Positions 9,163 through 62,647 of a DNA stretch of 64,000 bases are shown here, in pieces (the first letter of the stretch is position 1; the number at the start of each line of letters is the position of its first letter). Made by a program: the position numbers and the translations under genes. This DNA comes from Oscheius dolichura (lineage: Eukaryota > Nematoda > Chromadorea > Rhabditida > Rhabditidae). The notes under the pieces were generated by a model. It saw nothing but the letters and a program-made list of their open reading frames with translations. It was not told the DNA's origin and did no database searches. Where the stretch lies: contig OW051495.1 of the NCBI GenBank assembly GCA_932521035.1, positions 3,224,001 through 3,288,000 on the forward strand, in the 5' to 3' direction.

Positions 9163-12100
9163 TTAGGCTTTGGAGGTGAGCTTGTCCTGGGGCTGGTTGA
9201 TGGCGTGGCAGCCCCAGACGACGATCAGGGCGGAGAGGATTAAACAGATCATCGACAGGGAGACGACCGAGGAGACGAACCACGTCTCCGACAGGCAGAC
9301 CATCTCATCGGCCAGGCTGAAACCATAGCTTTAGACTAATTGAAAAACTTACGCGGCGATTGTTCTGTTCATGCTCTCCTGTTCCTCGTCTTCCTCGCCC
9401 TTGGCCAAGACGCGGATGATGGCAGAGAGTGTCTCCTCGGATTCGCCTTGGAGGGCATCGGCCGACCTCTTCTTACGTCCGTGGGACATGAACAGCTCGT
9501 TGGAACCAGAGTCAAGGCAGTTGGACTAAAAAGGATGGGTAAGAGGCGAACGAAAAGGTTGAACTAACCACGGGGCAGCCATTGGGTCCGGCACAGAACA
9601 TAATGGTGCACATGATCTGGACATCGTAAGAGCCGTCGAGGCGGAAGGCGCGGAGATCACTCTTCAGCCTGTTCTTGTCGAAGTCCTGCTCGACGGGGCC
9701 GACAAGGGCCGGATAACGAGGACAGCCGTTCTCGATGAGGGTGAAGGGGACACTGTCTCCGAATCCTCCAACACGGGTGGCGACGCATTCGGTGACCATC
9801 ATGTTGTGGGGGCCAGCTTGTTCGGAAGAGATGACCAGGAGGAGAGGATCCCCGATAGAGGCCTTGTGAAGAGGCTCCTCCAGCTGGTTAAGGATGGTGA
9901 GCTCAGCAGTGACGGGAGGAGGTGTAGCCACGTCGAGGACTGTAGTGTTCTGGGAGCTGTAACAGGTTGTTTACTAAAGTGAGAAGGTGACTTACTTGGC
10001 TTCGTAGATGGTGGTGACGACGACGGTTCCCTCTTTAACCATCTTATCCATAGATACGTCGCAAGAGACACGATAGAATCGATCCCATTCGGTGGTGACC
10101 TGGTGGGGGAGGACACCGTCCAGGGAGACGACAACCAGGGCTTCCATCTTTCCGTCACGGATGACGGTACCGCAATCGGCAGATACGGTCGGGGGAGGGA
10201 AGGTGATGGAAATCTGCTTGGCATTCTCGACAACCTAAAATAGTTATTGTTAATTGAATAGAGGAGCGAGTCACCTGGGAACAGGTCGAGAATCTCTCGG
10301 CGGCGTAGATGGCTCCAGTGTAGGGCTCTTTGGTGTTGACGATGAATCGGATTCCCTCGTTGGTGCAGAGAGCCATTCCTCCAAACTGGGATTCTAAACA
10401 GCTCTTTCTGAAGGATTTTCAGAGTATGCTAACCGCAGTTGAATTCGTAGTAGTCCATGGCGGGGTTGGCCTTTACATTGGCATCGGCGCGACCGACGGC
10501 GTAGATGAAGCACTTGGAGCTCTGCCTGAAAATCTTCTGCTATGGAGGATGTGGTATTCTGTACCTGTCATAGTTGATAGACTTGCAGTTGAGATTCTGG
10601 AAGCAGAGGGAGATGCAGTCTGAGACAGTGACACCCTGAGCCGAGGCGACGATCTCTCCTTCGATGGAGGAACCGATGAAACGTTCAAAGGCGGCCTGTT
10701 GTCTGCAGGTGGAGGAGGACAGATCAGCTGAAATGTAAAAGTGTGTACTTGTTGGGTGCCCTCTACTAATCCGAGAAAGTCAAATAGTTGCGTGTCTGGT
10801 ATCGCTCATCGGGGCGCCTTCGAGAGGTGAAGGACGTTCTTATCTAATCGACCCACTTTTTGACAAACGGGTGCGCCTACGGGGTGATCCAAGTTATCCG
10901 CGAGACAAAAAAGGAATTTAGCCGTTGCTAATCAATGACTGGACTTTCACTTAAGAACAGGAGGAGGAGATCGGAACTTACCGGCAACGCAGATGGGCTC
11001 GTAGTAGTCCTTTCCGACCACTTGGCCTTGCTGGTCGGCCCGGGAGAAAGTGTCCTCGTCGGAAACGATACAGTTCTTCTGTTGGGGGTTGAATTCCACA
11101 GATCTTAAATGATAGCCATGGCGGGGAGGGGAGGGGGACCGACCGGCAGAAGGTATTGAGGGAGTCGAGGCACTTCTGGAGACAGTAGCTCTCCTGGGCC
11201 TCTACAGATTGGGTGTGGTCGTAGAAGCGGATCTCGAAGTTGGTCGTCTTCACGAAGACCAAGTTTCCTCCGGAGGGACCACATCGATTCTGGCCTATTC
11301 AGGGTTATTAACAAGAAGAGGAGAGGTTACTCACGAGAGAGGCAGTTGTTGTCATAGTAGTCGACAGTCTGGTCAGCCATTCGGAGATGAGTCGGCTTCG
11401 ATCTTCTGTCTTCCGTCGACAGTTCACAAAGGAAAGACTCATAGTTGTAGTTGACGGAGCGGCAGACGAAGTCCTTCTCCTTCAGGCAGGCGGACAGGCA
11501 TTCCTCCCTCTTGGCAGCCTAAAAGAGGAGGAGTGGCAACTGAGGGGGACGGGCTACCTGGAAGCTCTTGCGGACGAATCCCTCCAAGACGGTCTTTCTC
11601 ATCCTCTCGAAGGAGAACGACCTGTAGGTGCAGGCCTCGTGGGCAGAGACTCCCGGCAGACAGGTCTTCTCATAGTAGAAGTTGTTGGCAGAGGGATTGG
11701 CTGTCAGCTCTCCGGTTCCTAGAAGATAGTGGTTCGAATTGAAGGAGAGGCTTCTACTCACCTGCTGGGGAGGCAGCATCGTCGAAGAAGTAGCAGGTCT
11801 CCCTTCCGTCGAAGTTGAAGGAGGCACAGACTCGCTGAGCTCCGGTCGTGGGTTCGATGTTATTCCTACAGTACTGGGAGCAGGTGAGATCATGTCCTGA
11901 AAATATCCCGCTCTTTGCCCGTGAGTCATCATCCCGTTTGTCCTCTCTGATATCCGCCCGAAGGCGAAAGAATTCCTCAAAATCTAGGTCATTTAGCTAC
12001 GCTTGTCTTTTTCTCCGATTCGTCGTGGGAATCAGTGGTTCGGATGTGATTTCATTATGATGACGAATATCGCGGATGAGATAACACACCTGCTGTGGAG

Positions 12101-21687: not shown

Positions 21688-24313
21688 ATGACGTCCCACA
21701 GGAGCAGTCTCCATCTTCTGCTCTTCTTAATAGTCATTTGTCATGTAGAGGCCATCAATACCACGGCCGAGCAGTTGGCCACTACCTTCCAGGTAGGCTA
21801 GGCCTTGTACAGGCTCAAGTAGTTGTTTCAGTTGATGCACTTCAATTGGGACTCGGTCAAGACTCCCTGCACAATTGCTATCTGGCTTCTCGTGGCTGCT
21901 CTCGCCAAAATATGTAAGCTTCCCTCCTTTTCTATTAGAACTCTCCTCCAGTTTTCAATAATCTCAAGCCGCTGACCTCTGTCCTCCCGGATTCGTCACT
22001 TTTAATATCTGTAGGCCTCGTAAGTCTCCCCTACTTCCAGGAAGGATCAAAGGGTTCAGATCCTCGGCTGTATCATCCGCCAGACGGGGTCAACCATCGA
22101 CTTCTCCATGGACTATCACGTCTTCTTCCTCTACCTCCTCCCGCCGATTATTTTCGATGCTGGTAGGATTGGATGGACAAGTATTATCTCCTCTTTTTAG
22201 GCTACTTCATGCCCAACCGGGCACTCTTCGAGAATATCGGCTCCGTTCTCCTCTTCTCTGTGGTAGGCACCCTCTGGAATACCTTCGCCATTGGTAACTG
22301 TCCTCCCCCTTCCCTTAGAATATCCCTTCAGGAGCGTCTCTCCTCCTCCTCCAGCAGTACCACGCCTTTTCGATGCCATTCACCACCTTCGAGATTTTCG
22401 TCTTCTCTGCCCTGATTTCGGCCGTCGACCCGGTACGTTAGTCAGCCAGCGGGAAGTGCGGCGTTCCTTGTTCTGGCCATCCTCTGCTAATTCGCATTGT
22501 GGTGTCACTGTCTAATTTGTCGGCGACCTTGCCCAGGAAAGGGAAAGAAAACAGAAAAGGCGAAGACATTTATAGCCTTCCAGGTAGCCGTGATTGCCGT
22601 CTTCGAGGAGATCCACGTGAATGAGTTTCTGTTTGTCAATGTCTTCGGGGAGGCTCTCTTCAACGACGGGGTCACTGTGGTCAGTCACCTCTCCTCCCTC
22701 TCTCCCAATTTCCTCTTCTAGGTACTGTACCAGATGTTCAAGAGCTTCGCCACCGTCGGTTCAGAGAATCTCGGCCCCCTCGAGTACACCCTCAGTGGGC
22801 TCTCCTTCTTCATCGTCGCCATCGGAGGAATGCTTGTCGGGATCGTCTTCGCCTTCATAACCGCCCTGGCTACCAAGTACACCTATCCTCCCGAGGTCCG
22901 TATCCTGGCCCCGGTCTTTGTCTTCGTCCTCCCTTACATGGCCTACCTGACCGCGGAGATGATCTCCCTCTCGCCCATTATTGCGTACGTGACTCCCCAG
23001 TTCCCCAGCTGACTGAACCCGTTTAGAATTGCCGTCTGCGGTATGGTTATGAAGCAATACGTCAAGGGGAACATCACCATAGCCGCTGCCAATTCGGTTA
23101 AATATTTTATCAAAATGATGGGACAGTCCATGGAGACTGTCATCTTCATGTTCCTCGGTCTGTCGACCATTAGCTCCGAGCATTACTGGGACACGTGGTT
23201 CGTCGTCTCCACCCTCATATTCTGTCTTCTCTGGAGAACTGTAGGTTCGTCGACCTACCGTACCACTCACAGATAGTCTACTTTCAGGGGTGATTATCCA
23301 ATGCTCCATTTTGAATCTCTTCCGCCATAAGAAGTTCTCCAAAGTTGACCAGTTCATTCTATCTTATGGCGGCCTCCGCGGAGCCATTGCCTTCGGTCTC
23401 GCGGTATCCATCCCAGCCGGCATTGAGGCAAAGCCCATGTTCGTTACGACAACTATTTGTACAATCTTCTTTACCGTATTCCTCCAGGTTTCTTCTGGTT
23501 CTTTTTTAAACACGCTAAGTTTAGGGAATCACCATTCGCCCGCTGGTAAAGTTTTTGGACGTAGAACTCGAAGAAATCAGAGAGCCGACCATGACGGAGA
23601 GTGTCTACGGCAAAGTGAGGCCACACTCCATCCTCTAATTAAATAATGCTTCAGTATTTGATCTATATGATGTCGGGTTTGGAGGAGATCGCCGGCCTTC
23701 GAGGACACTACTCTCTTAGGGACAGGCCAGTCTCCTCCATCGACTCGTCTCACTTCTCCTCCTTTTTAGATTTGACCGTTTCAACGGTAAATTCCTCCGA
23801 CCGGTCCTGATGAGACACGAGACCAAATGTGACTTTGATGCGTCCACAATCGTCCGGGCATACAACAAAATAACCCTGGAGGACGCGATGAAAGTCTCCC
23901 AGAGTCAGACGTAGGGTACACTCTCCCCTGCTCAAAAAGACTCCCGTTCAGGTCATTCAGCTCCCAGGAACAAAATACCGGAACAAGACAACGAGTGGGC
24001 TCGTCCGCTTCCAAAGTCGTTAAAGTAGGTTGTCCCCTTCCCGAATACGTTTTCTTAGTTCCAGGAGCCGGCCAGCCCAGTGACTGCGGGTCCCAGCAAA
24101 GACGATATGTACGCGATGTTTAGCGAGATGTTGGACAGGAAACTGAAGGAGATGAAGCTGGTCAACGAGAAGGGCAGAGAAGACCAGGACATCCCGGACG
24201 ACTACATGAAGCAAATGGAGGTGGAGAATGTGGACGACAACACGCACAACAGCCGGGACAGGATGAGAAAAAAGAGTTCAGGACTCGTAAGGCCGGTGTC
24301 TTTCGCTGTGTGA
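21688..24313 (+). CDS. Na+/H+ exchanger (NHE/NHX family, SLC9A)
   Basis: This membrane antiporter exchanges Na+ for H+ to set cell or organelle pH. A signal-like first segment ([15 protein letters not shown]) precedes about 11-12 spans. Family motifs are present: [18 protein letters not shown] (about 22125-22215), the [20 protein letters not shown] pair, the [15 protein letters not shown] motif with the Asn-Asp ion site, the [10 protein letters not shown] segment, and [13 protein letters not shown] near 23362-23402. The cytosolic tail has [15 protein letters not shown] and a mixed-charge regulatory region ([15 protein letters not shown]). About fourteen short introns are seen, plus one of about 150 bases (22435-22583) splitting SAVDP/VAVIA. 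All core motifs are intact, so it should be functional. The sFRP gene converges on it with 145 bp between the two stops. Confidence 0.93.
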
Positions 24314-24458: not shown

Positions 24459-26377
24459 TCAGAACAGACTGTACCGGCCGGTGTTGTGTTTCCTCATCGA
24501 GTAGTAGTGCGGTCTCCGGGAGGCGCTCTCTCGAATCTCTCGGCCAAGACTCTTACAATTCAACCTCTGGAACTGGTGGATGGCTCGTTTGAAGGCCTGG
24601 AAGGTCTGTTTCTACTGGGAGGACGAGGGAATAGTTTACCTTGTCCTTGGACCAGGGGAGGACTAAACTGGCAGTCAGCTGGCCGTCGTTGCCTTTGCTG
24701 GCCATCACCAGGAAGCGCTCGTCCGTCCCTCCGGAGACACCGCAGGGGCAGTCGGAGAGATTATTCGACAGGCGGATCTCTAGGAAGGCATCATGGGCCA
24801 TTTGGGGAAACTAACGGGTCTCGGGAACATTCCTCCGGCGGTCGGCCTTCTTCAGACTCCGTCCTCCCCTCACCGTAACATGTGTCCCTGTGATGCTGCT
24901 GATTTTCCCCTTGATCACTGAAGATTGCCTTTCTTTCAAACATTAAAAACATCTTTCCCACCTAGATGGCTACGGCAGAAATTGTCGACGAGATTCTCGT
25001 AGGTGGCCACTTGGCTGCAGGCTGGACAGCTGATGTCGCGCGCTTAAAGGAAACATGAGACGCTTCAGAAAGGGGGCCGACTTCTGGGGGGAGAGGCACG
25101 AGTTGTCACAATAACACATCGATTCGATTTGGGTAGGAGAGGCTATCATCCTCCTCCTCTTCCCTTTAGGGAGGCCAGCTTCCTCCTTCTGCCACCCTCG
25201 TGGCCGCCTTTACTATACGAGAAGGATGACCAGAAATGGAATGCCCGCTATCCTCAGTTATGAGCATAAGGGAAAGGGAATAACTGGTCCCCCAGGTGGC
25301 ACATTGGTTGTGAGGACAGCTGATGGATCGAGGTGCAAAGTGTTGGATAGGCTGATCGCCGTTTTGTGACACTTGAAAGAGGCCGACAAAAGACTTGACG
25401 AGTCCCTGCGAAAACCGTTTTGCCGCAGTTTTTAGAGTAATGCACAAACCACACGAGAGAGCCCCCCTTCGAAATTTGGTTTTGGTTTTGGTTTCGTCCG
25501 GGAGAAAAAGAGTTTACTTCTCGAGGACACGCGGGATTAGCCCGGTGAAAGGGGAGCCCCAGACACCGCATAAACAACGGGCCAGATGAGTCGGGAACGG
25601 CCGGCCAGACCCGGATCCCCTTTGACTTTTTTAAACGGATTATGAAATATTCTCAAGAGAAGAGGCGTTTTTCTGGGAGAGGAGTCATCAAAGTAAACGG
25701 GATTTGGAAGAGACAAACATTGAATAACCGCCCTTTTCCGGAACTCACCCTGCTTCTCGTGATTCACCGGCCGGAGACACATATCGTTATCTTCGGGATA
25801 CTTGTCGCAGGAGAGCATGTCCGGCCAGGGGAAGCCGTAGACAGACATCCGCCCCTCACATCCCTGCTTCACCGCCTCGCACAGCGACCGACAGGGGAGG
25901 ATCTCCTTGTCCATCGTCGGGAGACAAATGGGCGCGAACAGGGAGCATAAAAACAGCTGGAGATCACTTTGTTTTATAGATGAAAAGATCGGGAGATACC
26001 TGTGTATCCGGGTGGCAATTCAACTGGAGCAGGGACTTCCAATCGCTGGAGGCGTGGACCACCTCGGCTAGTGTTTCGTGTTCCAACAGATTCGGCAGTC
26101 GCATCTGATCATACTGTAAATATTCCCTTCAGTACTCAATTCCCTGCTGGATCACCTGAATTCCGTAGCAGATAGACAAATTCGAGGGGATCGGCACACA
26201 GCGGGGCCCGGTTGGGCGCTCTGAACTCAACATGGCCCATGAGTCGGAGAGGTAGGCGCTACCCTGAAATGGCCTGTGTCTCGGGGAACAAAGGAATGGA
26301 CCCGCCTGTGGTAGGGACAGTGACAAATCAATTAATAATGGGAATAATACGGCGGCGAGGGAGGCCGAGGGTGCCAT
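24459..26377 (-). CDS. Secreted Frizzled-related protein (CRD + NTR)
   Basis: This is a secreted Wnt modulator. The start at 26377 gives a signal peptide (MAPSASLAAVLFPLLIDLSL). The Frizzled cysteine-rich domain runs from GPRCVPIPSNLSICYGIQ through YDQMRLPNLLEHETLAEV and FLCSLFAPICLP to PCRSLCEAVKQGCE and DMLSCDKYP, so the usual ten-Cys pattern is present. A netrin-like (NTR) module follows, with CPACSQVATYENLVDNFC near 24975-25030, CPCGVSGGTDERFLVMA and VLPWSKD. The C-terminus is basic. CRD plus NTR without membrane spans defines sFRPs rather than Frizzled. Two introns are unusual. One of about 700 bases (about 25048-25747) separates CRD from NTR. Another (26305 down to 26264, 42 bases) needs a GC donor, because the only GT donor there puts a stop in frame. 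Confidence 0.9.
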
Positions 26378-26679: not shown

Positions 26680-27952
26680 CCGTTGACAAATTGCTGTTCT
26701 CACATGGGAGAAAGGGCCGGTAGTTCTAGTGGAAGTGTCATCCATCACTGATAAACTGTCTGATTGTCTCTGAACTTTCAACGTTCACCGTTTCACCGCC
26801 TGGGTGCTAGTCAATTAGAAAGCGAACAAGATATTTCGGATAGTTTATTGGAAACTAGGTTTCCCTGGGAAATGCTCGGCAAGACAAGGGACAAGGAATG
26901 TACACGTGGTGGAATCAAAAGAGAAGCAGCTACTTGCCCCTCTGCTCGTCGAGGTGCTTGACGACTCCGTCCCAGAGGCGGATTCTCGCCTGGAGAGCCT
27001 TCTCGGCGGCCACGGTGGCCTCTTCCCAGCGGTCGTCGTCGTTGCCGCCACAGAGCTCAGCCATCATCATCAGGGACATCGGCCCGTGGTCCTCGCCGTC
27101 GACTTCGATGTGTCTCTCGAGGTAGACGATGAACGTGTCCAGGGCGCCCTCCATGCCCTGGTTCATGTCGCGGAGGAGGCCGGTGAACATGAGGGGGATG
27201 AGGTCTTCACGGCCGAAGGCGAAGGCCGCGGCCACGATGTGCAGCTTTCCGGTTCGGATAAACTCGAAGGTGGTGCGGACGAAGCCGGCGGCCGGGGCAG
27301 GGGCATCTTTGAGAGCCTCGGCCAGGGCGGTGTCGGAGATGTCGCCTTTCTTGGCGATAGCGGCCAGCACCTTCTGGACTCGCTCGGTGGTGGAGCCGGC
27401 GGCCTCCATGGACTCAAGGTAGAGCTCGAGGTGAGAGATGTGCTGCTCTCCGACGAAGTCGCTCTCCTCCCCGAGGACGATCTCGTTGATGAGTCTTCGG
27501 GAGATGCGGGGACCCTGGGCACTCCATGGCACACTGACACAGGTCAGTTCGCGTTGGAGGTACTGGAAGATGGCAGGTTCGGGGGATCTGGGAAAGAGGA
27601 CAAACCTTGAGGAGACTCATAAAATCCCAGACGGCGTAGACGTGGTTCTCCATGAAGCGGCGAAGGTCGGCGATGTTCTGGACGGCCTTGTAGAGGGGGT
27701 GGACGGCCAGCTGCTTCTGGAGGGGCTCGAGGCGTTTCTGGAGGCGGTTGACGGCCTCGTGAGGGAAGTTCTCGGGGAAGGCGTGGGCGACCATTATTCT
27801 TATGGTTGTGGATGGGAGAGTCAGTTGGCTGGATGTCTTCCTCTCCCGGCTCATCCCTTTTATGGGGAACTGTCTGCCCGCCCCGGAAGGCCAGAAATAA
27901 CCCGCGCCGTCGTCTTCGCTCTATCAACTGCCCCTTGATAGTTGAATGACCA
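26680..27952 (-). repeat. Left arm of long inverted repeat (1,273 bp)
   Basis: This arm is the reverse complement of 29597-30869. Paired positions sum to 57549 at both ends and at every open frame compared, so there is no net insertion or deletion. All nine pairs of open frames across the arms have identical translations, and the segments I compared base by base are identical. It carries one whole DUF3050 gene with about 158 bp upstream and 250 bp downstream. Confidence 0.93.
26930..27794 (-). CDS. DUF3050 protein (heme-oxygenase-like fold), left copy
   Basis: Two exons are joined over one 43-base intron and encode about 273 residues. Motifs of the DUF3050 family are clear: [20 protein letters not shown] in exon 1, then [40 protein letters not shown] and [20 protein letters not shown]. 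The family is placed near heme-oxygenase-like helical proteins and is known mainly from bacteria; its reaction is not established. The His in [10 protein letters not shown] and the Glu/His residues in GEESD...HISHLELY are conserved and could bind metal. Codon use is strongly C/G-ending (CTC, ATC, GCC). The gene has a typical short worm intron and a poly(A) signal, so it is a resident gene and not contamination. It is transcribed away from its twin. Confidence 0.85.
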
Positions 27953-29596: not shown

Positions 29597-30869
29597 TGGT
29601 CATTCAACTATCAAGGGGCAGTTGATAGAGCGAAGACGACGGCGCGGGTTATTTCTGGCCTTCCGGGGCGGGCAGACAGTTCCCCATAAAAGGGATGAGC
29701 CGGGAGAGGAAGACATCCAGCCAACTGACTCTCCCATCCACAACCATAAGAATAATGGTCGCCCACGCCTTCCCCGAGAACTTCCCTCACGAGGCCGTCA
29801 ACCGCCTCCAGAAACGCCTCGAGCCCCTCCAGAAGCAGCTGGCCGTCCACCCCCTCTACAAGGCCGTCCAGAACATCGCCGACCTTCGCCGCTTCATGGA
29901 GAACCACGTCTACGCCGTCTGGGATTTTATGAGTCTCCTCAAGGTTTGTCCTCTTTCCCAGATCCCCCGAACCTGCCATCTTCCAGTACCTCCAACGCGA
30001 ACTGACCTGTGTCAGTGTGCCATGGAGTGCCCAGGGTCCCCGCATCTCCCGAAGACTCATCAACGAGATCGTCCTCGGGGAGGAGAGCGACTTCGTCGGA
30101 GAGCAGCACATCTCTCACCTCGAGCTCTACCTTGAGTCCATGGAGGCCGCCGGCTCCACCACCGAGCGAGTCCAGAAGGTGCTGGCCGCTATCGCCAAGA
30201 AAGGCGACATCTCCGACACCGCCCTGGCCGAGGCTCTCAAAGATGCCCCTGCCCCGGCCGCCGGCTTCGTCCGCACCACCTTCGAGTTTATCCGAACCGG
30301 AAAGCTGCACATCGTGGCCGCGGCCTTCGCCTTCGGCCGTGAAGACCTCATCCCCCTCATGTTCACCGGCCTCCTCCGCGACATGAACCAGGGCATGGAG
30401 GGCGCCCTGGACACGTTCATCGTCTACCTCGAGAGACACATCGAAGTCGACGGCGAGGACCACGGGCCGATGTCCCTGATGATGATGGCTGAGCTCTGTG
30501 GCGGCAACGACGACGACCGCTGGGAAGAGGCCACCGTGGCCGCCGAGAAGGCTCTCCAGGCGAGAATCCGCCTCTGGGACGGAGTCGTCAAGCACCTCGA
30601 CGAGCAGAGGGGCAAGTAGCTGCTTCTCTTTTGATTCCACCACGTGTACATTCCTTGTCCCTTGTCTTGCCGAGCATTTCCCAGGGAAACCTAGTTTCCA
30701 ATAAACTATCCGAAATATCTTGTTCGCTTTCTAATTGACTAGCACCCAGGCGGTGAAACGGTGAACGTTGAAAGTTCAGAGACAATCAGACAGTTTATCA
30801 GTGATGGATGACACTTCCACTAGAACTACCGGCCCTTTCTCCCATGTGAGAACAGCAATTTGTCAACGG
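29597..30869 (+). repeat. Right arm of long inverted repeat (1,273 bp)
   Basis: This arm is the reverse complement of 26680-27952. Identity stops abruptly on both sides: at 29597 the shared text begins with TGGTCATTCAAC and at 30869 it ends with GTCAACGG. Flanking bases then differ from the left arm's flanks. It includes the DUF3050 gene and its AATAAA signal near 30702. Confidence 0.93.
29755..30619 (+). CDS. DUF3050 protein (heme-oxygenase-like fold), right copy
   Basis: The protein is identical to the left copy. The start ([20 protein letters not shown]) is chosen because the frame upstream of it is preceded by basal promoter-like sequence and this Met fits family length. Exon 1 ends at VWDFMSLLK, a 43-base intron follows (29944-29986), and exon 2 runs to the stop at 30617-30619. 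The C-terminus is [13 protein letters not shown]. An open antisense frame of 234 codons exists in both copies but is a by-product of the GC-rich codon pattern. Total identity between copies points to very recent duplication or ongoing gene conversion. Confidence 0.85.
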
Positions 30870-46808: not shown

Positions 46809-49541
46809 TTAAAGCTTCTCAACAACACCCTCGACTACCCAGTTGTCCACGTCTTTCGTCTTCTCGATTGGCTTGACTGCTGGCCGCCGCGAGCCGATCA
46901 ACCCGTCGATTGCCAACTTCTCGAGTTTAAGGAAGGGCAGCTCGCAGATACAACTCCAGACGAAGGCGAACACATAGGCCAGCACAGTGATCGGGATGGT
47001 ATACGTTTGGAACTGAAGATATCTATTAGAAAATGGGGTGGGGAGGGTACCTGGGCGAGGAGATTCGTAAAGTGGAGTGGTCGGTCGAATAGATTGAAAT
47101 AGTACATGATGAGGAAGAAGTGGACGAGGTAGGCGGTGTAGCTGAGACGGCCGAGGGGCTGCCAGAGGGGATGGTCCATGAACGAGGCTATTGGCCCTCC
47201 GTATCCGTAGTAGTTGGCCACGACAACCCAGCAGACGAACATTCCCCATCCGATTCGACTGAACGAATAGTAGAAGGCACTTGTGAATTTGCTGAAAGTA
47301 ATTTCCTCTTCCGTGGGAAAGGGCAAAGTACCTCCAGTTGGTCTCAAAGGCCAGGTACTTGTAGGGGCCGTAGACACAAGCCAACCCGACGGCCAAAAAG
47401 AAGATCCACCCAATTAGGGCGAAGATCTGAACCGTTTTATTGTTTCTCAGAAAAGAATGAATCTTACAAAGTGCACTTTTGGAGCCTTAGCCTTGGGGAA
47501 TCGGGCGAGGAGGTAGCCGACGTAGATGCCGACCAGGTAGGGGGTGATGCGGATCCACGGCATGGAGTACAACTTTTCGAAGAAGATCATACCGCTAAAA
47601 AGCGAAGGATTATTGCATAATACTGAATGTTAGCTTACTTTGCCCCTACTCTGACGATGCTTGCCCCCAGATTGTAGTGGAAGACTTCATAAAAGGTGAT
47701 GCCGACACTGCCCGCGATGGCTCCGAGGAGGACGACCAGTCCGACCCAATGGGAGATGAACAGAGCCACCAAAAAGAGCGGAGCAACGAGATACATCTGG
47801 GTGTCGGCTGCCAGATACCAGGTGATGCCGTAACACTGGAAGACAAGCGTTAGAGGAGGAAGACGGGGCAACTAACTCCATCGTTCGGGTCGAAATTGTT
47901 GATGTAGATGAGATTGCGCCACCAATATTTTGTACAGATGTCTACTGTTGCCTGGTTCCCCAGAGAATTTTGGCCGATCATCAAAGGAACAAAGGCGATG
48001 TAGAAGCAGATGAAGAGCATGTAGGGAGGAGTCAGTCTAGAGGGGGACATTGAGGGACGAGGAGAACGAAACCTACCGGAGGTAGCGGTGGACATAGAAC
48101 AACACCCAGGTGACGGGATTCTTGACGAGTTTACGGTTCTTGGCCATTTGCTGAACTTGATAAATATTAGAAGGGGAGGCGGATACCTTGAAAAAGAGAT
48201 AAGACACCAGCAATCCGGATAGGGTGAAGAAGGTGTCAACCGAGAGGACTGCGTCTCCGATTGTGTCGGCCATTATCGGTTTGGTTATATTGAGGATGGG
48301 GAGCACGACATCTAGAAACAATATTCGAGGTGTCTTCTGTATTATAATACCATTGGCGAGGAAGCACATGGCGGTGTGTCCCTCGACGACCCATAACATG
48401 GAGAAGAAGCGGATACAATCGAGAGACTTGAGGTGGCCTTCCCTGGCCGGGGCGGTGTCCAGGATCGAGTGGCCGTTGGTGTAGAAAGAGAAGGAGAGCA
48501 GAATTTTTAGACCTTTAAAAACTCATCTTCTTCCTTTCCAGACCCTCCTTACCGTATGTTTCCGCCTTGGAGGATGGCCGGCCGAGGTATGTTTCCCTGA
48601 CGAAGTCCACAGCCGACGCGAGGATACAAATTCCGACGAGGACAGACATAAAGCTGCTAAACCATTTGTTTCTTGTAAAAATAGAAAACGAACATGAATA
48701 TCCAGAAGAAGACATTGGTGTGTCCTTTCTCCGGCACACATTGGGCCGAGCAGTGCTTCAGCGGCCCCTGATTCATGGTCTCCATAATCAGGACAATATC
48801 CTGGAAAAGCCTTGTGTACCGTACTATAATTTCCCGTTATCGGTGTCTCTTATCTCCCAAAAGAGACACGATGATATCATTTTTGAATCTTTTTGGACTA
48901 TGATGTTACAAAAAAGCTCACCTGAGGGGAACAGGACGACGGCATACAGACGGCCGTCTTGATGGTGAACAGATTATCACACGTCGCATTCTGAAGGATA
49001 CTCTTCAGTTATAAATAAAAGGAGCATACCTCTCCAAGACCAGAATAGACATAGCAGTAGTGTGTCTTGTAGATGTAGTGCTTACTGACTTCTTTGCACT
49101 CGTATTCGGACCCGTACTGGGTAAAGTCCAAGTCGAGGACGCCCGCCGGGATGCGACCGAACGCGTCCAATTCTAAACATTCCGTTTTATCTATCTCTTT
49201 TGAGAAACCATACGTTTCAAGGCGTAGATATTCTTCTTCAAATCATCTTTGGTCGCATTCGTGCACAGTGGAGATTTCTCGACGAAGCAGAGGTCGAATT
49301 CCACTGCGAAGGCCTCGAGCCCGGCAATCCATTGCTGGACATCGGTCTGGCATTGTTCCGAGACTCCGGTCAAATTTGTTTTTCGCCCGTTGTTGTCAGA
49401 AACTGGCAGCCATCTCTGAAGAATTGACTGTGAAACGAGGAATGGGATCGGTCTCACCTCTCTGGCTAGGAGTTTCTCCAAATCAGTAGTGGCCGTGGCC
49501 AGAGTCCCAAGGCATAATAAAAGAAGGGAATAGTTAAGCAT
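46809..49541 (-). CDS. NRF-6-type acyltransferase-3 membrane protein
   Basis: This belongs to the nose-resistant-to-fluoxetine family, in which a secreted-side Cys-rich NRF domain is fused to an acyltransferase-3 membrane domain. In C. elegans these proteins affect lipid and drug uptake in intestine and hypodermis. The signal peptide is MLNYSLLLLCLGTLATATTD. The NRF domain includes EQCQTDVQQWIAGLEAFAVE, FDLCFVEKSPLCTN, LDAFGRIPAGVLDLDFTQYG, EYECKEVSKHYIYKTHYCYV and NATC...AVCMPSSC. The acyltransferase part has EGHTAMCFLANG, SVDTFFTLSGLLVSYLFFKV (the DxFFxLSG signature), CYGITWYLAADTQMYLVAPL, RLSYTAYLVHFFLIMYYFNL and about ten spans. It ends VVEGVVEKL. About twelve short introns are seen. No key motif is missing. 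Confidence 0.88.
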
Positions 49542-60573: not shown

Positions 60574-62647
60574 TTACTTGCTTTGTAACTGTGCAGTTAT
60601 GCGGTAGACCTTCTGGCCGACGGTCGCCATGTTCTCGTCCACCTCCAGCTCCAGGATCGCTCCGTACTTGGCCACCTTCGTCGTCTCCTCGCCCTTCTCG
60701 CCCAGTACCTTCCCCGGCGCACTCCACAGATTGATCAGGCGGCCGTTCTCGTTCCACATTATGCCGTTGTCCACGTGGTGCCGGGATCGGATGATGTAGT
60801 TTAGCTGAAAAGGGTAGATTTAGAGGAGGAGACGACTCCCAACCGACCTTCACATCCTTGCACAGCTTGTCCACTGCCTGGAAGCCAAAGTGGCCAATCT
60901 CCGTATCTGCATCCTCGCGATACATCTTTATCCGCGTGGTGGGCTCGTTGAAGATAAGCTGTCGCGCGAGGGTCGGCATTTCCTCCAGGTCGAAGGGCCG
61001 CTTGACCTCGGCGAAACTCTCGTAGTCCGTCAGCAGATGGCTGATGCCGCTGTGGACTGCCAAAATTCTACAGTGGATACGGCAGGCGATGGGCAGATGG
61101 GCACAGAGACGAGTCGCCGCCCTGAAGAAGCTCATTCACGAGATAAGAAAAGGGGGACGGACGATTGTATGGCGGCATCGTTGGTCTCCCCGTAGCGGGC
61201 TCCAAAGCTGATTTTCATCGACTCTGGCACCCCGCGGAGCAGGAAGACGTGGTTGGGGAAGGCCACCTTCATCACGGAGATCAGAGCCAGCGTGTCGAGG
61301 CTGCCCGGCTCGTCCGGGTCGATGACGCCCCCAAGGAAGAGCAGCTTCTTCGTCGGCGGTACTCCTACAAGCTGTAGCCATCGCCAGAGATCTCTAAATA
61401 ATAAGAGGCAGTCCTTTAAATAGAGAGAAAACAGACGTGTAATGGCCGCGAAGATCGCCGATGACGACGACGGGCAGGCTGATCTCGACGAGGACTTCGT
61501 CCGCTTGGAAGCACTCCTTGGCCTGGTCGAACAGCTCCACCAAGTCGATCGGCTTCCAGTCGTAGGCATACGGGCCGTGCTCGAGGACCGTCTGCATGGT
61601 GGCTCTCTCCGGTTGCAGGGTGTCGTCGTACCGTACCCAGGTCTTGCGATTCGCCCGAACCAGTTCGTGTCCGTGGCCGGTCGCCCCGTGGTCGATGACT
61701 TTGACCACCTGGTTCGGCGGGAAGTGCACCCGCCGCCTGGGGATCACCACTGATTCGTAGTCCTTGATGGCCATGAACCACGCCACGAGCTCGTTGAAGG
61801 CCAGCTGGCCCGAGACGAGTCGCTCCGTCGTCTGAATTGGCCTGTCCTCCTCCCTGTCCACCCTCTGCCGTACCTTATCAATGGCCAGCATCGGCTTGAA
61901 TTCCATGAGGACGACGGCCTTCTCGATCCGTTTGTGGAAGGCGTGGATGACCCACTCGTCCCTCTTGGCCACCTTGTAGAGGTGGAAGAACGGCCAAATG
62001 ACGAGCACCACGAGCACGAGGCAGCTGATCGTGAACAGGGCCAGATCGTAGTGCTGCATTTCCTGGTGCTCTGACTGCTTGAAGTGGACGGCCTCGATCG
62101 GCTGGTAGGCGCCGGGATGGTTGCAGTGGTCCCCGTCACAACAGTAGAGATGGGTCTTCTTGAAGGTACGCTTGTTGAAATATCTGAAGGGGAAGATAAA
62201 GAAAAGGGGAAGAGACTGACATCCTGAGGTTGGGATAGGGCTTGTCCATGTTGGAGCAGACGTGGTAATACTTCGGCGGGTAGGTGTCTATGTCCTGGCA
62301 GTGGTAGCTCGTCTCGTTCGACCACTCGTTCCTCTTTGTATCCTGGTTGTAGTCGAGGGAGAAGGTCACTTTCAAGACACACGCATGCTGGCAATAATCC
62401 ATCTGGATGGTGTCATTTACAGAGATGTAGCAGTATCTGTATTTCGTTTCCCATTGTTCCACCAAGTTCTAAATGTGCGCATGGTTTGGGGGTAAAAGAA
62501 ATGGCGAACCAGAAGAATGCCAATTCCGTAATAGGCAGTCAACGGGAAGAAATGTGTTTTATTGTCGAACGCGCCTCCTTTTTCCCATTCTAGAGCACAG
62601 CTTGTGCCAATAATAATAGGAATCAGGAGAAAAGACGGCCTGACCAT
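60574..62647 (-). CDS. Receptor-like membrane pseudophosphatase (three-finger ectodomain + PP1 fold)
   Basis: This protein of about 620 residues has a signal peptide (MVRPSFLLIPIIIGTSCALE). A Cys-rich ectodomain with about eight cysteines follows and ends in YCCDGDHCNHPG, the CCxxxxCN mark of three-finger (Ly6/activin-receptor) domains. One membrane span follows (LALFTISCLVLVVLVIWPFF). The cytosolic part matches PP1 throughout: VVVIGDLRGHYRDLWRWLQL, KKLLFLGGVIDPDEPGSLDT, FPNHVFLLRGVPESMKIS, CRILAVHSGISHLL and LNYIIRSRHHVDNGIMWNEN, then LWSAPGKVLGE. Against PP1, metal ligands H66 (Arg), D92 (Gly), N124 (Val) and H248 (Arg) are replaced. The proton donor H125 (Pro), R96 (Pro) and Y272 (Lys) are also lost. 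D64 and H173 remain. The fold is kept, catalysis is almost surely lost. The five or so introns are about 40 bases. Confidence 0.85.

Follow-up and report, generated by a model that had tools for sequence, protein, structure and literature searches.

The window analyzed here, the whole 64,000-nt stretch of DNA, is dense in genes with introns of ~40 bp. Along it lie a ZP-domain (cuticlin-like) exon (9515–9970, minus strand), a sodium/proton exchanger exon (23245–23643, plus strand), a Frizzled exon (25540–26019, minus strand), and an acyltransferase-3 (nrf-6-like) exon (48076–48522, minus strand). Such genes, their density, and the short introns are in keeping with a nematode. An inverted repeat (26680–27952 / 29597–30869) has 1273-nt arms that are 100% identical and separated by 1644 nt; it either arose very recently by inverted duplication or was introduced during assembly. 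The gene of interest, which encodes a putative receptor, runs on the minus strand from 62647 to 60574 and is built from six exons that join into an open frame of 622 aa. A DEAD-box helicase gene lies upstream on the plus strand, and ~320 bp downstream, sharing the strand of the receptor gene, is a nitroreductase-family gene (60250–59650, minus strand; PF00881 2.6e-10 for the joined piece), which we take to be iodotyrosine-deiodinase/SUP-18-like. The two minus-strand genes possibly form an operon. The features of the receptor gene are as follows.

62510–62647, minus strand: exon 1, with the start codon and the hydrophobic leader MVRPSFLLIPIIIGTSCA, then another 28 residues (open frame and hydropathy; boundary or start uncertain)
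62221–62468, minus strand: exon 2, with ectodomain cysteines 1–5 and two N-glycosylation sequons (GC3 0.78)
61437–62183, minus strand: exon 3, with CCDGDHCN, the membrane span, the juxtamembrane region, and the start of the PP1 fold (GDLRG) (297-aa stop-free frame; GC3 0.86)
62120–62143, minus strand: CCDGDHCN, the putative C-terminal three-finger signature (translation, ectodomain profile, and shuffles)
61979–62044, minus strand: predicted membrane span, aa 176–197, LALFTISCLVLVVLVIWPFFHL (Kyte-Doolittle mean up to 2.67)
61721–61735, minus strand: RRVHF, candidate PP1-docking (RVxF) motif, aa 279–283, followed by a hydrophobic VV
61163–61393, minus strand: exon 4, with FLGGVIDPDE (PP1 FLGDYVDRG) and FLLRGVPE (PP1 FLLRGNHE) (PP1 alignment)
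60848–61121, minus strand: exon 5, with LPIA and AVHSGIS (PP1 CCHGGLS) (PP1 alignment)
60574–60804, minus strand: exon 6, with IIRSRHH (PP1 ICRAHQ) and WSAPGKV (PP1 FSAPNYC), stop included (PP1 alignment)

The five introns measure 41, 37, 43, 41, and 43 bp, and all are bounded by GT-AG. Exon 3 reads through 747 bases without a stop and contains the CCDGDHCN finger, the span, the juxtamembrane region, and GDLRGHYT. Because everything from the last finger through the first PP1 motif shares this exon, the fusion of the extracellular head to the PP1-like part is independent of splice choice. The homology to PP1 stays in frame through all three downstream splice junctions; at junction 3, the joined GDLRGHYT/DLWRW aligns gap-free to PP1-beta GDIHGQYTDLLRL. 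At the gene's position-wise composition, 622 stop-free codons would arise by chance with a probability of ~1e-8. In exons 2–6, GC content reaches 0.75–0.86 at the third codon position versus 0.31–0.40 at the second, a bias that is a strong coding signature. These data bear out the earlier proposal that a signal peptide, a Cys-rich ectodomain, a span, and a PP1 fold belong to a single gene, with one open 622-aa frame and the fusion inside exon 3. Exon 1 lacks the third-position bias (0.46/0.41/0.46 by codon position), which leaves its boundary or its start in doubt; an alternative start with a second possible leader, MKLLLYIISIPFP, lies just upstream of the exon 1 leader and could reach the same exon 2 through a phase-compatible junction.

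The intron donors, all within 60805–62509, read GTCAGT, GTCTGT, GTCCGT, GTCGGT, and GTTCGC. Four of the five conform to GTCNGT, with C at +3, and the first intron has GTTCGC; these donors are unusual and unlike the GTAAG of the neighboring helicase gene. A survey of donor sites across the whole window was too noisy to judge how frequent GTCNGT is in this species. No paralogue of the ectodomain half or the PP1 half exists elsewhere in the 64,000 nt, and no relative was found in the prokaryotic and viral contigs searched, as expected for an animal gene.

Hydropathy analysis revealed an N-terminal hydrophobic leader and one clear membrane span, and all three N-glycosylation sequons belong to the ectodomain side, including one within the doubtful exon 1. 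A type I membrane topology is supported for the predicted protein. In LU domains, which span 60–90 residues, the last of the ten cysteines is immediately followed by an invariant Asn, and the 2–3 disulphide is often missing, leaving eight cysteines (PMC6600238). The ectodomain contains eight cysteines, at positions 59, 72, 76, 103, 117, 143, 144, and 149, followed by Asn150, in agreement with the LU rule of eight to ten cysteines in stereotyped order and an Asn right after the last. From first Cys to last Asn, it measures 92 residues (59–150), just past the LU range, and its loops are long. The terminal CC-x4-CN is rare by composition, with CCx4CN appearing in 0.15% of shuffles of the ectodomain. 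On a receptor LU profile made from ten human LU domains, the ectodomain scores 14.7 bits, and 2000 plain shuffles peak at 11.6. With the cysteines held fixed, 4 of 2000 shuffles match this score; the similarity to LU domains therefore consists mostly of the cysteine pattern.

In profile searches of the ectodomain, only the last finger scores. Pfam returned no significant match, Activin_recp reaching E = 2.3 and 9.7 bits versus a cut-off of 20.9. The ectodomain alone yielded only chance-level matches in the PDB, among them a TGF-beta type I receptor whose match (E = 5.6) covers the CCxxxxCN end, and no significant family was found for the ectodomain or the juxtamembrane region in Pfam and NCBIfam. 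Judging from the number and order of its cysteines and its C-N ending, this region is quite probably an LU/three-finger domain. The three-finger ectodomain proposed in the earlier note is plausible, with an eight-Cys, LU-like pattern and a C-N end but no significant profile match (Activin_recp at E = 2.3).

In the cytosolic part, the similarity to PP1 greatly exceeds chance. A phmmer search of the PDB ranked PP1 best at 3.3e-24 over aa 348–577, ahead of the next solved structures, plant BSU1 (4e-16), PP2A (3e-12), and calcineurin (7e-12), which identifies a PP1-type PPP domain. PF00149 matches at 2.4e-9, above the Pfam gathering score; there is no Pfam kinase match to suggest a cytosolic Ser/Thr kinase domain, PF00149 being found there. 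The domain is ~31% identical to PP1 over 291 aligned positions and keeps, in PP1 numbering, E44, E54, F119, and I169. The active site is heavily altered. Two metal ligands, D64 and H173, are kept, and four of the six are lost (H66R, D92G, N124V, H248R); among the other catalytic residues, D95 is kept, with R96P, H125P, R221D, and Y272K replaced. The residue mapping to PP1 agrees exactly with the previously reported replacement of four metal ligands, the catalytic His, Arg96, and Tyr272, to which it adds the loss of Arg221. In PP1, D92 bridges both metals, so both metal sites are destroyed and PP1-type catalysis by the domain is very unlikely. With the fold retained, the catalytic residues gone, and the frame intact, the domain is best described as a predicted PPP-class pseudophosphatase. 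In its RVxF groove, F119 and I169 are kept, L55I and V264I are mild, and L243Y, F257W, and R261G are further changes; the C-terminal strand (PP1 L289/C291/F293) does not align.

The segment that links the span to the PP1 fold contains PRRRVHFPPNQVV (aa 277–289), which fits a stringent PP1-docking pattern and did not figure in the earlier account of the gene. The setting of RRVHF, with basic residues ahead and a hydrophobic pair behind, resembles that in PP1 regulators. Plasmodium PP1 partners carry motifs of the form [KR][KR][KNST]V[SHTRQN][FW], from which RRRVHF differs solely at the third place (PMC4794898). The stringent RVxF pattern occurs once in the cytosolic part; 6.0% of shuffles contain one, or 3.8% when the hydrophobic pair is included. 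As a candidate PP1-docking motif, RRVHF is suggestive, and it could also have arisen by chance (~6%).

We tentatively favor, as a possible interpretation, a single-pass receptor or co-receptor whose RVHF recruits active PP1 and whose dead PP1-derived fold serves as a binding module. The LU/three-finger ectodomain would bind an extracellular partner, for which TGF-beta-type ligands are the most obvious class, by analogy only. RRVHF, placed between the span and the dead domain, would recruit the active PP1 catalytic subunit, and the dead fold may itself bind phosphoproteins or PP1 partners. Ligand binding would then set live PP1 beside its target in the membrane, for instance a type I receptor kinase, turning that target off. 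PP1 delivered by SARA, Endofin, or Smad7-GADD34 is known to switch off TGF-beta type I receptors (PMC4000109), which makes a three-finger co-receptor that delivers PP1 on one chain a reasonable idea. The PP1-recruiting receptor draws support from the open frame, the single-exon fusion, the coding signature, the active-site map, and the span, and further from the LU-profile score, the eight Cys plus Asn (PMC6600238), the RVxF motif, and the precedent for PP1 delivery (PMC4000109). Speaking against it are an ectodomain similarity that lies mostly in cysteines, the Activin_recp match at E = 2.3, an RVxF motif that chance could produce, the GTCNGT donors, and the doubtful exon 1. A further claim, which we regard as rather unlikely, is that the pseudophosphatase of PPP fold and the RVxF motif are both under the control of a three-finger ectodomain, so that ligand directly gates live-PP1 recruitment at the membrane; this would constitute a new animal receptor class.

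The earlier note had seen in the protein a ligand-binding receptor that signals by docking PP1 regulators or substrates. On this view the protein would be a decoy that holds these partners on the PP1 surface it has kept, and live PP1 would not be recruited. The structural basis of that interpretation stands: a single gene, a predicted type I topology, a PP1-type fold with a destroyed active site, and the Cys pattern. Pseudophosphatases in general have scaffold and decoy roles. The preservation of the PP1 fold (31% identity over 291 positions, with E44, E54, F119, and I169) is consistent with such a function, as are the dead PPPs of kinetoplastids, which have lost catalytic residues and are supposed to act non-catalytically (PMC2175518). 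However, with L243, F257, and R261 changed and the C-terminal strand unaligned, the RVxF groove survives only in part, and the case for its binding ordinary PP1 regulators is correspondingly weaker. Since the protein carries an RVxF motif of its own, regulator docking is no more likely than recruitment of live PP1, and we hold the decoy to be fairly unlikely. The partial degeneracy of the groove also argues against an intramolecular latch, in which RRVHF would rest in the protein's own dead PP1 domain until freed by ligand binding; motif and fold do share one chain, with ~60 residues between them, and we consider such a latch improbable.

Two further explanations assign the PP1 part no signaling role. 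BAMBI is a known pseudoreceptor. It is among the LU-domain genes (PMC6600238), and the destroyed catalytic site would suit a comparable ligand sink, in which only the ectodomain and its anchor matter and the dead PP1 would be an idle remnant or would serve for stability. Yet the frame of the PP1 part is long and open, its codon signature is strong, and its fold motifs are intact, none of which is typical of a tail in decay, and a sink of this type seems unlikely. A gene-model artefact or pseudogene, namely a decaying PP1 copy next to an unrelated secreted protein, would be in line with the odd GTCNGT donors and the uncertain exon 1, but it has little probability given the fusion within one exon, the chance expectation for the stop-free frame, the GC3 of exons 2–6, and the in-frame PP1 homology over three splice junctions.

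Receptors that signal via Ser/Thr kinases are textbook; receptors with a Ser/Thr-phosphatase fold are not. A full-text literature search of partial coverage found no nematode pseudophosphatase of PP1 type that is a receptor or spans the membrane, no PPP-fold receptor, and no description of the arrangement seen here. Orthologues of the gene, unnamed, may already be in databases. If real and conserved, a PP1-recruiting receptor would offer a testable, direct route by which an extracellular ligand could bring PP1 to the membrane or keep it away.

The closest relatives of the dead domain in fold and sequence are the PP1 catalytic subunits (E = 3e-24). PP1 and its nematode paralogues GSP-1 to GSP-4 are soluble and active, with GDxHG, GDxVDRG, and GNHE intact. 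The kinetoplastid PPP pseudophosphatases (kPPP and the second PP2B group) share a PPP fold with substituted catalytic residues, but they belong to a different lineage, and no receptor ectodomain is described for them in PMC2175518. Among tyrosine phosphatases (PTPs), receptor-type pseudophosphatases are known: PTPRN/IA-2, PTPRN2, and PTPRU are built as receptors and carry a phosphatase domain that is catalytically dead (PMC7320164, PMC11802530). Theirs is a cysteine-based PTP fold, whereas the fold here is that of the metal-dependent PPP (PP1) enzymes, and a real and conserved gene would add PPP-class members to the receptor pseudophosphatases, which are known from tyrosine phosphatases. BAMBI likewise joins an LU-type ectodomain and a span and has no working enzyme inside. 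It has only a short tail, whereas the cytosolic part seen here is 420 aa long and contains a PP1 fold. The overall plan resembles that of the type I and type II TGF-beta/activin receptor kinases, which have a leader, a single LU/three-finger-type ectodomain ending in CCx4CN, one span, and a large cytosolic signaling fold. These receptors differ in having ten or more cysteines, compared with eight and long finger loops here, and in carrying a kinase inside where this protein carries a dead PP1 fold; if ligand does gate the recruitment of live PP1, it would be their phosphatase-recruiting mirror image.
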